The position numbers and the translations under genes were made by a program. This document shows, in pieces, positions 9,933-36,270 of a DNA stretch of 36,270 nt; the first letter of the stretch is position 1, and each line of letters begins with the position of its first letter. Source of the stretch: Clostridia bacterium (GTDB taxonomy: Bacteria; Bacillota; Peptococcia; DRI-13; SV3-B141); the NCBI GenBank assembly GCA_018433015.1, contig JAHDSB010000151.1:1-36270 (forward strand). Direction: 5' to 3'. A model generated the notes under the pieces. That model saw only the letters and a program-made list of their open reading frames with translations, made no database searches and had not been told where the DNA came from.

Positions 9933-9965
9933 TTATATTCAACCCCTAATAAATGTTGGGTGGGA

Positions 9966-10218
9966 AAACACATTGATAGAGTTTCAATCTACCACGCAAT
10001 AACTGTCCGTAAGGTGGATGTTTGAGATGAGAGAGGACGGACAGTAACATCCTGATTGGTTCAACTAGCTATCAGGAAAAAACACCTGATAGAAGTTTCA
10101 CTCTACCACGTAGTAACTGTCCGTATTATGGATGTTTGGGATAAGAGAGGACGGACAGTAACATCCTGATTGGTTCAACTAACTACCAGGAAAAAGCACC
10201 TGATAGAAGTTTCACTCT
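9966..10218 (-). repeat. two-hairpin interspersed repeat, array of two units plus a decayed part
   Basis: Two units of 114 bp follow a degraded end piece (9966-9994). Each has a stem ACTGTCCGT/ACGGACAGT (10002-10010 with 10037-10045; 10116-10124 with 10151-10159) around a 26-base loop. A linker with CCTGATTGGTTCAACTA follows, then a small hairpin (CTATCAGG/CCTGATAG at 10069-10092; one mismatch in the second unit), then AAGTTTCACTCTACCACG. Orientation is opposite to the copies at 22.64 kb. The array fills the gap upstream of the nucleoside kinase gene. Confidence 0.85.
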
Positions 10219-10275
10219 ATGTTATGGAGGATTTGTCCTTTTGGTGACTGTTGTTGTGAAGAAAGGAGAGAAAAT

Positions 10276-11967
10276 ATGAATAAAGGGATAGAGAAAAAAC
10301 TAGAACAGATTCCATTACAACTAGCTGATAAAGTTTATAATATTCCCCAGGGTAAACCCTTATTAGCATTAGCAATTCAAGTACAACCAGAATATTCTTC
10401 ACCGATTGTAGGTGCAAAAATTGATAATGAAATCGTTGATTTATATACAGAAATAACTAAACCGGGTAGAGTAGAGTTCCTTGATTTAACGACAGAGGAT
10501 GGTATGAGGATTTACAGGCAAAGTTTGGTGTTTTTAATGACTAGAGCTGCCTATGAATTATCGGCTCCTTATCTAATTAGGGTAGAACATTCTTTAGGAA
10601 AGAGCTACTATTGCGAATTGATTGGTTCAGGACACAGAGCTTTACCTCTAGAGTTGATTACATTAGAAGCTAAAATGCGCCAATTGATAGAACTAGATGA
10701 GCCCATTATTCCCCAGAGAATACATCGGGGAAACGCAATAGGCATTCTATCAACTTTGGGTTTTGAAGATAAAGTTGATTTTCTAAAAAATATAGATTGT
10801 GATCAGGTTACACTGCATAGTTCCGGATCTTTTTCAAATTATTCTTACAGTAAATTAGTACCTACTACGGGGTGCTTAGGGGTTTTTAAACTAGAACCCC
10901 ATGATAAAGGCTTTTTATTGCGTTTCCCGGCCTCAGAGAACCCTGCAGTTGTAGCACCTTATCCTGATTTACCTAAACTAGATCAGGTATTCCGTGAGTC
11001 GGAAAAATGGGCAAATATTTTAGAAATAAGTAATTTAGTGGGAATGGTAAAGCTCTTAAATAGAGACTCTCATGCCGGAAATGAGTTAATTCATATTGCC
11101 GAAGCTTTGCATGAAAAGAAAATAGCTCAGATTGCTGATGAAATATATGCGCGTAGGGATAAAGTAAGGGTAGTATTAATAGCAGGACCTTCATCATCAG
11201 GCAAGACAACTTTTGCTCAGCGCCTAGCTATTCAATTACGGGTTTGCGGGTTAAAGCCTATATCCATCTCCCTAGATGATTATTTTGTCAATCGGGAAGA
11301 TACACCCCTAGATGAAAAGGGAGATTATGATTTTGAGGCCTTAGAAGCTGTAGACGTTGCTTTATTTAATGAACACTTAAAAGAGTTAATAAATGGTAAT
11401 AAAATCGAGTGCCCCATATTTAATTTTCACCGAGGAGCGCGAGAAAGCCAGGGCAGAGCAATAAAAGTATCAGAAGATAGTCCCATCATTATTGAAGGGA
11501 TTCATGGACTTAATGAAAAACTTACCTCCGCTATAAGCAGAGAGAATAAATATAAAATATATATCAGTGCTCTAACTCAGCTAAGCATTGATGATCATAA
11601 CCGTATTCCTACCACTGATACGCGCTTAATTCGCCGGATTGTGCGGGATAATCAGTTCCGTTCGCAAAATGCTTTAACTACCTTGAAGAGATGGGCTTCT
11701 GTGCGGCGAGGAGAAGAGCGTAATATCTTTCCTTACCAAGAGGAAGCTGATATTATGTTTAACTCTGCCTTAATCTATGAATTAAGTGTATTAAAGACAT
11801 ATGCTTATCCCCTGCTTAAGGCAGTGAGTCGCACGGAAGTGGAGTACTCTGATGCCCAAAGGCTCCTTAAGCTCTTATCATATTTCCCCGAACTGAAATC
11901 GTTAAATGTACCTTTGAATTCAATTTTACGAGAATTTATCGGGGGAAGTTCTATCCATGGCAATTAA
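10276..11967 (+). CDS. nucleoside (uridine-type) kinase with threonyl-tRNA-synthetase-like N-terminal region
   Basis: 563 residues in two parts. Residues about 1-230 resemble the TGS plus second additional domain of threonyl-tRNA synthetase (EFLDLTTEDGMRIYRQS). Residues about 280-500 form a uridine-kinase/phosphoribulokinase type P-loop domain with Walker A GPSSSGKT at 304-311, then ISLDDYFVNREDTPLDE, the region that binds the nucleoside. The family is common in Firmicutes and Thermotoga and probably phosphorylates a pyrimidine or related nucleoside; the role of the front part is unknown. I chose the ATG at 10276 because AAAGGAG precedes it. A longer frame from 10219 starts inside the repeat boundary with no ribosome site. 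Confidence 0.85.
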   Translation: MNKGIEKKLEQIPLQLADKVYNIPQGKPLLALAIQVQPEYSSPIVGAKIDNEIVDLYTEITKPGRVEFLDLTTEDGMRIYRQSLVFLMTRAAYELSAPYLIRVEHSLGKSYYCELIGSGHRALPLELITLEAKMRQLIELDEPIIPQRIHRGNAIGILSTLGFEDKVDFLKNIDCDQVTLHSSGSFSNYSYSKLVPTTGCLGVFKLEPHDKGFLLRFPASENPAVVAPYPDLPKLDQVFRESEKWANILEISNLVGMVKLLNRDSHAGNELIHIAEALHEKKIAQIADEIYARRDKVRVVLIAGPSSSGKTTFAQRLAIQLRVCGLKPISISLDDYFVNREDTPLDEKGDYDFEALEAVDVALFNEHLKELINGNKIECPIFNFHRGARESQGRAIKVSEDSPIIIEGIHGLNEKLTSAISRENKYKIYISALTQLSIDDHNRIPTTDTRLIRRIVRDNQFRSQNALTTLKRWASVRRGEERNIFPYQEEADIMFNSALIYELSVLKTYAYPLLKAVSRTEVEYSDAQRLLKLLSYFPELKSLNVPLNSILREFIGGSSIHGN

Positions 11968-15155: not shown

Positions 15156-15175
15156 TTATATTACAAATAAATATT

Positions 15176-15285
15176 CCCTTGAAATTAGTCCCGAGAGGCT
15201 AGTAAGGGTTAGATTTTGCTGACTATCTATAAGGATAATTGTAAAGCAAAGATAAACCTCCTAGCCCTGGGCAGGGGGTTTTTTT
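15176..15285 (+). promoter_or_regulatory. PyrR-type attenuator 2 in the pyr leader
   Basis: The binding hairpin has CCCTT (15176) pairing with AAGGG (15204-15208) and TAG with CTA, enclosing TCCCGAGAGG; AGTCCCGAGAGGCT matches the PyrR consensus closely. The antiterminator is AGGGTTAG (15205-15212) with CTAGCCCT (15261-15268), extended by TTTGCT (15215-15220) with AGCAAA (15245-15250). The terminator is AACCTCCT with AGGGGGTT followed by a run of T to 15285. Its left arm overlaps the antiterminator partner. Confidence 0.85.
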
Positions 15286-15354
15286 AACGAGAAAAGTAAG
15301 ATTATTTTAAGGTTTTTATGGCTTTGGGTAATAATAATTTTGAGGAGGGAGAAC

Positions 15355-21887: not shown

Positions 21888-21942
21888 GAAAAATAGGCGC
21901 CAAAAGTAAAGATAAGTTGATTCATACGGGGGACTGAATGAT

Positions 21943-22650
21943 ATGATTAATGGGCAAGAAAAAGTGATTATAGCGTTAGATTATCCAAATTGGAAAGAAG
22001 CCGAAAAGCTTGTATTACAAATACCTGAAGTAAAGTATTATAAGGTGGGTTTGGAGCTATACTTGGCCAGTAGAGGAGAAGCGGTACAAAATTTAAAGAA
22101 GTTAGGTAAGAAGGTTTTTCTAGATCTGAAGTTTCATGATATACCTAACACGGTTGCCCAAGCTTGTTGCCAAGCTGTAGATCAAGGAGCTGATATTCTT
22201 AATGTCCATGCTTTAGGGGGAAAAGAAATGATGGCTAAAAGTGCTAGTGCTGTACAGGAACAGGCCTTAAAGCAAAAGAGGGAAAAGCCTCTCCTGATAG
22301 CGGTAACACTATTAACCAGTATGAATGAGGATGATTTGCAAGGTGTAGGCTTGAGCGGAGTAGAACAGTCGGTAGGAAGGTTAGCTCATTTGACCAAGGA
22401 AGCAGGTTTAGACGGAGTAGTAGCTTCTCCCCGAGAAATAAAATTAATCAGAGAAAAATGTGGTAAAGATTTTAAGATTATCTGCCCCGGTGTTCGTCCA
22501 ACCTGGGCTGCTAAAGGTGACCAAAAACGAGTGTTAACACCGAAGGAAGCCTTAGCTTTAGGAGCAGATTTCTTAGTGATCGGGAGGCCCATTACTAAAG
22601 CAGACAACCCCCGAGAAGCCGCCCAAAGAATCCTCGAAGAGGTACAGTGA
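21943..22650 (+). CDS. pyrF: orotidine 5'-phosphate decarboxylase
   Basis: 235 residues, a TIM-barrel of the bacterial OMP decarboxylase type I. It carries the catalytic motif LDLKFHDIPNTV (about 60-72) and the phosphate-binding end GADFLVIGRPITKA (about 205-218). It makes UMP from OMP. GGGGGA precedes the ATG. The last two sense codons and the stop (GTA CAG TGA) lie inside the first unit of the repeat array, so the repeat has replaced or formed the original end of the gene. pyrD and pyrK, which usually sit between carB and pyrF, are missing. Confidence 0.95.
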   Translation: MINGQEKVIIALDYPNWKEAEKLVLQIPEVKYYKVGLELYLASRGEAVQNLKKLGKKVFLDLKFHDIPNTVAQACCQAVDQGADILNVHALGGKEMMAKSASAVQEQALKQKREKPLLIAVTLLTSMNEDDLQGVGLSGVEQSVGRLAHLTKEAGLDGVVASPREIKLIREKCGKDFKIICPGVRPTWAAKGDQKRVLTPKEALALGADFLVIGRPITKADNPREAAQRILEEVQ

Positions 22651-23113
22651 AACTTACGTCAGGGGTATTTTACCTGATAGTTAGTTGAACCAATCAGGGT
22701 AATACTGTCCGTCATCTGAAATTATGTAAGCAATAAAAGTACGGACAGTAATAGCGTGGTACAGTGAAACTTCCGTCAGGGGTGTCTTTTCCCCTGATGG
22801 TTAGTTGAACCAATCAGGGTGATACTGTCCGTTATCTGAAATTATGCAAGCAATAAAAGTACGGACAGTAATAGCGTGGTACAGTGAAACTTCAATCAGG
22901 GGTATTTTACCTGATAGTTAGTTGAACCAATCAGGGTAATACTGTCCGTCATCTGAAATTATGTAAGCAATAAAAGTACGGACAGTAATAGCGTGGTACA
23001 GTAAAACTTCCATCAGGGGTGTTTTTCCCCTGATGGTTAGTTGAACCAATCAGGGTAATACTGTCCGTTATCTGAAATTATGCAAGCGATAAAAGTACGG
23101 ACAGTAATAGCGT
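22641..23113 (+). repeat. two-hairpin interspersed repeat, array of four units inside the pyr operon
   Basis: Four head-to-tail units start at 22641, 22758, 22878 and 22995 (117, 120, 117 and 119 bp). Each has GGTACAGTGAAACTT, a small hairpin around TCAGG/CCTGA, the linker TTAGTTGAACCAATCAGGG, then a 10 bp stem TACTGTCCGT/ACGGACAGTA around 28 bases, ending ATAGCGT. Units 1 and 3 match each other and units 2 and 4 match each other, so a two-unit block was duplicated. The array fills the gap between pyrF and pyrE with no T tract after either stem, so it is not a set of terminators. Confidence 0.9.
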
Positions 23114-23137
23114 GGAAAAGTGAAAAGGAGGCCGAAA

Positions 23138-23716
23138 ATGGAACGTGAAGATATTTTAAATATATTTAAGGATAATAAGGCAATGTTAGAAGGTCATTTT
23201 CTTTTAACGTCTGGAAGGCACAGCAATCAATATTTGCAATGTGCTTTAGTTTTACAGAAACCTTCCGTAGCTGAAAAACTCTCTCAAGAGCTCTGCAAAA
23301 AAATTGAGGAGCAAAACGTCGATATTGTTATCGGACCGGCAATAGGAGGCATTACCTTTGCTTATGAGATGGCTCGCCAGTTAGGAGCACTAGCATTATT
23401 TGCTGAAAGGGAAGAGGGAGCAATGACCTTGCGCCGCGGTTTTACCATAGCTCCGGGAGCCAGGGTTTTAGTAGTAGAGGATGTTATAACTACAGGTGGT
23501 TCTGTACGGGAAGTTGTGGAGTTAGTTAAGAAACTGGGGGGACAGGTTGTAGGTGTTGCCTCCTTAGTAGATCGAAGCAATGGAAAAGTTGAATTCGGCT
23601 GCCCTTTTACTAGTCTACTTCCTATAGAAGTAGTGTCATATTCTCCTGAGGATTGTCCTTTATGTAAAGAAGGAAAACCCATAGTTAAACCAGGTTCCAG
23701 AAAGGTAAAGAAGTAA
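23138..23716 (+). CDS. pyrE: orotate phosphoribosyltransferase
   Basis: 192 residues. It joins orotate to PRPP to give OMP. The PRPP-binding motif [14 protein letters not shown] lies near residue 110, with substrate contacts in [12 protein letters not shown] and [13 protein letters not shown]. The C-terminal stretch with CPLC resembles archaeal and clostridial PyrE forms. AGGAGG lies 7 bases before the ATG at 23138; an in-frame GTG at 23120 comes before that site and is unlikely. The last gene of the operon, separated from pyrF by the repeat array and followed at once by half a repeat unit and a terminator. Confidence 0.95.
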
Positions 23717-23766
23717 AGTGAAACTCTATCAGGGTATTTTACCTGATAGCTAGTTGAACCAATCAA
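23717..23766 (+). repeat. half unit of the two-hairpin repeat after pyrE
   Basis: Starting at the base after the pyrE stop codon, AGTGAAACT leads into a perfect small hairpin CTATCAGG/CCTGATAG and the linker TAGTTGAACCAATCA. The following TACTGTCCGT stem is absent. This is a truncated copy in the same orientation as the array before pyrE. Confidence 0.85.
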
Positions 23767-23790
23767 AGTAGTATTAACCAGTATCCTTTT

Positions 23791-23831
23791 AAGGTCCTCC
23801 AATGACAGTATTGTAATCGGAGGGCCTTTTT
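23791..23831 (+). terminator. rho-independent terminator of the pyr operon
   Basis: AAGGTCCTCC pairs with GGAGGGCCTT (one G-U pair) around an 18-base loop, followed by five T. Confidence 0.85.
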
Positions 23832-36027: not shown

Positions 36028-36096
36028 TAATCTTCCTCCTTAGTTGTCCTTTGATATGAGAAAAATTTTTTCACCTTACCATCCTTTTATTACATT

Positions 36097-36270
36097 GTAA
36101 CCGTCTGTAATTTCTTCTTAAAATAGAAAAGAGAAAACGGACAGTAACATCCTGATTGGTTCAACTAAACTATCAGGAAAAAACACCTGATAGAAGTTTC
36201 ACTCTACCACGTAGTAACTGTCCGTAAGATAAAAGTAAGTATGAGAGAAAACGGACAGTAACATCCTGAT
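36097..36270 (-). repeat. two-hairpin interspersed repeat array running off the right edge
   Basis: A first unit has a decayed left stem arm (ACCGTCTGT at 36100-36108) and a good right arm (36137-36145), then the conserved linker and a perfect small hairpin CTATCAGG/CCTGATAG (36170-36193). A second unit has a perfect ACTGTCCGT/ACGGACAGT stem (36217-36225 and 36251-36259) around 25 bases and continues past the window. Same orientation as the 10 kb array and opposite to the pyr array. Confidence 0.85.

Follow-up and report, generated by a model that had tools for sequence, protein, structure and literature searches.

The repeat array that separates pyrF from pyrE in this genome very probably represents a non-autonomous mobile element, present in four tandem copies, that targets ATAAA and was inserted in the ancestral tail of pyrF. 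The repeat unit is dispersed in this genome and in other Bacillota, and its mobility is evident from occupied and empty orthologous sites in Lysinibacillus. The window is the whole stretch of DNA that was analysed, 36,270 nucleotides in length, and its features are collected in Table 1.

The array at the pyrF-pyrE junction

The array (22641–23113) contains four head-to-tail units of 117, 120, 117, and 119 nt, and is reported by Tandem Repeats Finder as 22641–23125, with a period of 117, 4.1 copies, and a score of 796. The original prediction held that two versions of the unit alternate as A-B-A-B, and the four-way alignment bears this out. Nine columns split two against two; eight of them join units 1+3 and 2+4, one joins units 1+2 and 3+4, and none joins units 1+4 and 2+3. 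Units 1 and 3 differ at 3 positions and units 2 and 4 at 5, compared to 11–12 for every A/B pair. The loop letters quoted for the two types are right (ATGTAAGC in units 1 and 3, ATGCAAGC in units 2 and 4), as is the CCCC/GGGG stem of units 2 and 4. This pattern implies that a two-unit block was duplicated, as had been proposed, but the duplication is “recent” only in a relative sense, because the paired units differ at 3–5 positions.

The array also takes over the end of pyrF as predicted, in that the first 10 nt of unit 1, GGTACAGTGA, form the final codons and stop of the gene. Between this stop and the pyrE start lies a spacer of 487 nt. The short stretch at the right edge of the array is possibly the stump of a fifth unit. 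Upstream, carB stands directly before pyrF, and positions 21888–21942 between them contain no pyrK or pyrD open reading frame. The operon is probably under PyrR attenuation, since a PyrR site precedes pyrB. The array does lie inside the pyr operon, as was first described, but its units are not unique to this site, being four copies of a dispersed mobile repeat.

Table 1. Positions of genes, repeat units, and other features in the window
Feature	Position	Strand	Basis
Array of two full units and part of a third (to about 9965)	9990..10218	-	Tandem Repeats Finder, covariance model
PyrR binding site ahead of pyrB	15173-15287	+	RF00515, 59.3 bits
pyrF, 235 aa, C-terminus ILEEVQ* supplied by the element	21943..22650	+	Stop inside unit 1
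Unit 1 (type A), full-length element	22641..22757	+	Covariance model match 22644-22761, E 1.6e-24
Unit 2 (type B)	22758..22877	+	Covariance model match and unit alignment
Unit 3 (type A)	22878..22994	+	Covariance model match and unit alignment
Unit 4 (type B)	22995..23113	+	Covariance model match and unit alignment
Array right edge: GGAAAAG (degenerate GGATAAAG) and TGAAA	23114..23125	+	Repeat finder extends to 23125
AAGGAGG, pyrE ribosome site	23125..23131	+	Sequence comparison with pyrF tails of relatives
pyrE; stop TAA within the GTAAAG start of the next element copy	23138..23716	+	
Degenerate solitary copy directly at the pyrE stop	23715..23807	+	Covariance model, E 1.6e-7
Third array, interrupted by the contig end	36088..36270	-	Covariance model

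The junction was compared in 15 relatives from other families of the order that have both genes in place. The same array in relatives over a long evolutionary distance had been named as the observation that would speak against the prediction; instead, the element is absent in 15 of 15, which marks a lineage-specific insertion. The gap between pyrF and pyrE in these genomes ranges from -4 to 112 bp, with a 4-nt overlap of pyrF and pyrE in G002, G009, G010, and G004 (pyrE identity 67–74%). In relatives, pyrF has the tail GAAGAA-ATAAAGGAGGC (G012) or a closely similar one, in which the target motif overlaps the pyrE ribosome site. At the place of the last codons, relatives have GAAGAAATAAAGGAGGC (G012) or similar, with ATAAAG also in G007 and G014, and their AAGGAGG motif forms part of the last pyrF codons (GAAATAAAGGAGGC). 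In the genome analysed here, GAAGAG runs into the GTACAG-TGA of unit 1, and GGAAAAGTGAAAAGGAGGCCGAAAATG comes after unit 4; the ATAAA boundaries at this locus are degenerate (GTACAG, GAAAAG). Since relatives have the motif within the last pyrF codons, the AAGGAGG ahead of pyrE is probably retained from the pyrF tail.

In the simplest history, the array would have arisen in several steps. Ancestral pyrF would have abutted or overlapped pyrE, and a copy of the element would have entered ATAAAG in the last pyrF codons. The first bases of the element (ATAAAGTGA, now GTACAGTGA) would have given pyrF a new stop, presumably from the ATA AAG TGA of the element, and the displaced pyrF tail, AAGGAGGCC, would have remained as the pyrE ribosome site. 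The array may then have grown to A-B and later to A-B-A-B through unequal exchange or slippage. An insertion of this kind predicts that the empty site would read GAAGARATAAAGGAGGCC. The end of pyrE may have been acquired likewise, as its stop falls in the GTAAAG of the copy at 23715.

Structure, mobility, and distribution of the repeat unit

A covariance model built from 23 copies gave 43 matches at E < 1e-4 in this genome, at about 27 loci where the unit is solitary or arrayed. The copies are intergenic, and many adjoin the stop codon of the gene upstream without a gap, which fits the target because ATAAA contains TAA. Their orientation to neighboring genes is inconsistent, and at some loci both neighbors are antisense. 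Elsewhere in the window, the minus-strand array at 9965–10219 abuts the start of a plus-strand open reading frame (10219–11967). The end of another contig, C108 (L003, 1–164), has the same unit sequence as the minus-strand array at 36088–36270, and because both ends bear this sequence the two contigs probably adjoin, the assembly having broken within the repeat.

Across 35 copies from many genera, the element is built as ATAAA-GTGAAACTTC-hairpin 1-GTTAGTTGAAC-short linker-hairpin 2-GCGGG-ATAAA. It has no terminal inverted repeats, with GTGAAACTTC at one end compared to CCCGCATTAA as the inverse of the other end. Units in this genome are 105–140 nt in length (about 118 nt) and have a reduced upper stem. 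The two hairpins are kept by compensatory changes: 29 of 36 pairs are altered on both sides, 86.5% of cells pair, and at some positions, such as columns 87–165 and 91–161, each of the four Watson-Crick pairs occurs. The covariation score is 0.416, compared to 0.161 for shuffled sequences and at most 0.117 with slid partners, for a structure that was written by hand and with the proviso that related sequences may beat shuffles without structure, while the slid control retains relatedness.

Conservation of this kind could also be expected if the unit were a cis-acting structured RNA, such as a riboswitch or protein-binding leader in tandem, that is selected at the RNA level. The strong covariation in two conserved hairpins accords with such a role, as do the outer stem, GTGAAACT/AGTTGAAC, which is conserved and has GA steps facing each other when folded by prediction, and the excess of G-T over A-C pairs in hairpin 1 (45 vs. 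14 in an alignment fitted to the structure). In the core of hairpin 2, however, G-T and A-C pairs are about equally frequent (16 vs. 13, again in an alignment fitted to the structure), and the unit has no constant orientation to downstream genes. No Rfam family matches the unit, the sole Rfam match being the PyrR site upstream of pyrB. Mobility is shown by the variation in copy number and by the filled and empty orthologous sites described below, and an RNA-level function of this type is considered highly improbable. A literature search with the unit sequence itself found nothing.

For Lysinibacillus, the sequences on either side of occupied sites were spliced together with the element left out, and close species were searched for the result. 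Contiguous matches exist in which the empty site is a single ATAA(A), compared to ATAAA-element-ATAAA at the occupied site. Because ATAAA flanks the unit on both sides while orthologous empty sites hold one ATAA(A), the unit is a mobile element. The empty junction reads AATCGATAAATTTG at L233 (vs. G095 and G076), GTTAAAATAAATTTT at L252 (vs. G060), and CCGAAATAATACG at L234 (vs. G080); in two further cases, L247 and L250, the junctions are blurred by indels. One array site has three units in G060, two in G095, one altered unit in G076, and none in G080. Empty sites and varying unit number therefore indicate that the element inserts at ATAAA and that arrays gain or lose whole units.

Matches were found in 11 of 59 other relatives, and G012, which belongs to another family of the order, has 40 matches and one five-unit array. 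In the Bacillales order of G066, 20 of 80 sampled genomes contain 1–37 copies and 60 contain none (E 1e-6). This patchy presence, together with tens of copies in carriers, is typical of a mobile repeat. In a pattern scan over one genome per species, carriers among the matches listed include Bacillus, Oceanobacillus, Lysinibacillus, Virgibacillus, Ornithinibacillus, Paenibacillus, Clostridium, and others, and most copies among these listed matches are preceded by ATAAA and end in GGGATAAA. Nearly all Bacilli copies have ATAAA before and after them, and the size of the Bacilli copies is about 150–160 nt. Tandem arrangement is frequent in the family, with arrays of 2–4 units in this genome.

A plasmid scan revealed a few copies on Bacillaceae plasmids and one on a Klebsiella plasmid. 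The latter copy (L212, 2001–2092) is shortened and falls outside Bacillota, its plasmid being recorded as Klebsiella grimontii pNY3A; transfer or a mixed sample is possible. No copies were found in phages, and one scan of viral contigs was empty. At L035, L040, L067, L115, and L127 (Cytobacillus, Bacillus, and Lysinibacillus), short palindromes are nested within the element (GCCACGTCCTGTGGC... and GTACCTGTCGCTAAAGC...), and G076 has a nested short palindrome at L208 as well. In G138, closely spaced copies were considered as cassettes and rejected, as they sit between ordinary chromosomal genes. Longer composite elements, with a gene between two ends, were not recognized among 120 loci with a strict pattern.

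Movement of the element and its nearest known systems

At 34 of 40 loci from four genomes (G076 9/10, G095 9/9, G482 10/12, G165 6/9), the element is on the strand opposite to the leading strand as judged by GC skew; of these genomes, G076 and G095 are close relatives whose loci may not be independent. In the five loci where skew and gene direction conflict, the element is on the lagging side by skew. Over all Bacilli loci, 66 of 107 are opposite the leading strand, as are 55 of the 84 with clear skew (p = 0.006). The bias is absent or reversed in this genome (6 of 19 loci). At L276–L294, from two Lysinibacillus genomes, the element is opposite the leading strand at 18 of 19 loci, which is a strong bias.

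Elements of the IS200/IS605 type have subterminal hairpins, no inverted repeats, and a fixed short motif at both cleavage sites. The repeat unit resembles elements derived from them in its two subterminal hairpins, its lack of inverted repeats, and the fixed pentanucleotide that is shared by its flank and its opposite end. A replication-strand bias may be a further likeness, being present in several Bacilli but absent or reversed in this genome. It differs in that several carriers have no Y1 transposase: none (Y1_Tnp) was found in this genome or in the copy-rich G062 and G063, and none of the Y1 genes examined is flanked by element ends. The strand bias in several Bacilli, the subterminal hairpins, the fixed pentanucleotide at both ends, and the tandem insertion would fit single-strand insertion of the IS200/IS605 type. 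Such insertion is put forward here tentatively, at somewhat less than an even chance, because Y1 transposases are absent from these genomes and the examined Y1 loci lack element ends.

Another possibility is that the unit is a REP/BIME-like palindrome moved by a resident Y1 transposase of the RAYT type. Dispersed intergenic palindromes in arrays of alternating units do resemble the BIMEs of E. coli and others, which also lie between operon genes, and many carriers encode Y1 proteins. However, Y1_Tnp is lacking in the three genomes named above, the Y1 loci examined are without element ends, and no RAYT partner was found. The units here are also all in the same (+) orientation, as complete two-hairpin elements of 117–120 nt, and the 105–160 nt unit with two different hairpins compares poorly with the 20–40 bp of REP. 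Such an origin is thus very unlikely. Miniature elements (MITEs) of DDE transposons are likewise short, non-autonomous, dispersed, and flanked by 5-bp direct repeats, but the element described here has no terminal inverted repeats, and its flanking sequence is in every case ATAAA, intact or decayed.

Among described families, the nearest is bcr1 of the Bacillus cereus group (group A, with bcr2 and bcr3), to which the element is likened by description, not by sequence. The size of bcr1 is about 147–167 nt (PMC2267715), compared to about 150–160 nt in the Bacilli copies, and its TTTAT motif (PMC6542083) corresponds to ATAAA on the other strand, which is degenerate in the window. Both have MITE-like mobility, stem-loop structure, and tens of copies. 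bcr1 is positioned in UTRs and between operon genes (PMC3446304), and the copies described here are chromosomal and intergenic. In contrast, descriptions of bcr1 confine it to the B. cereus group, whereas these copies occur in many other Bacillota genera, and the units of this genome are shorter (105–140 nt), with a reduced upper stem and arrays of 2–4 (5 in G012). It may be speculated that bcr1 is one branch of a Bacillota-wide two-hairpin family, in which an enzyme other than a resident Y1 transposase would catalyze single-strand insertion at TTTAT on the lagging-strand template and head-to-tail arrays would form via the TTTAT of the element itself; this combined proposal is regarded as doubtful.

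Consequences for pyrE and for the family

To judge from the relatives, the tight spacing of pyrF and pyrE has clearly been lost. Translational coupling between the two genes has probably been lost or weakened as well, because a close or overlapping junction became a 487-nt spacer. The most likely effect would leave both genes whole, with the stems transcribed along with them and pyrE translation initiated independently instead of being coupled to pyrF.

The original prediction went further and proposed that the array may separate the expression of pyrE or its mRNA stability from the preceding genes. In a stronger form, the array would serve the pyr operon as a module for regulation or stability, with stems that protect or process the message or set the output of pyrE apart. 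Its position inside an operon, where it is presumably transcribed, would be suitable for this, and RNA 22641–23150 is predicted to be highly structured (-170.6 kcal/mol, z = -8.5 compared to shuffles). Repeats of the bcr type are often parts of transcripts in B. cereus, where about half of the copies are transcribed (PMC3446304). bcr1 is often among them, but only bcr3 correlated with decay rate, with a longer half-life (PMC3446304). Moreover, the plus strand of the junction shows no conspicuous terminator-like or promoter-like site, the unit has other genes as neighbors in either orientation, at some loci with both antisense to it, and the element is missing from the pyrF-pyrE junction in relatives. 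A separating role is thus not supported so far, and a dedicated module is improbable; the array may nevertheless affect pyrE as a by-product of the insertion of the mobile element.

The junction offers an example history of how a mobile repeat may enter a tightly packed operon without harm. The ATAAA target coincides in part with stop codons and with the pyrF end, a stop would come with the element, and the downstream gene would keep its ribosome site. More broadly, bcr1-like repeats have been described as confined to the B. cereus group, yet look-alikes exist throughout Bacillota, and their empty sites and strand bias make the mechanism of mobility testable.
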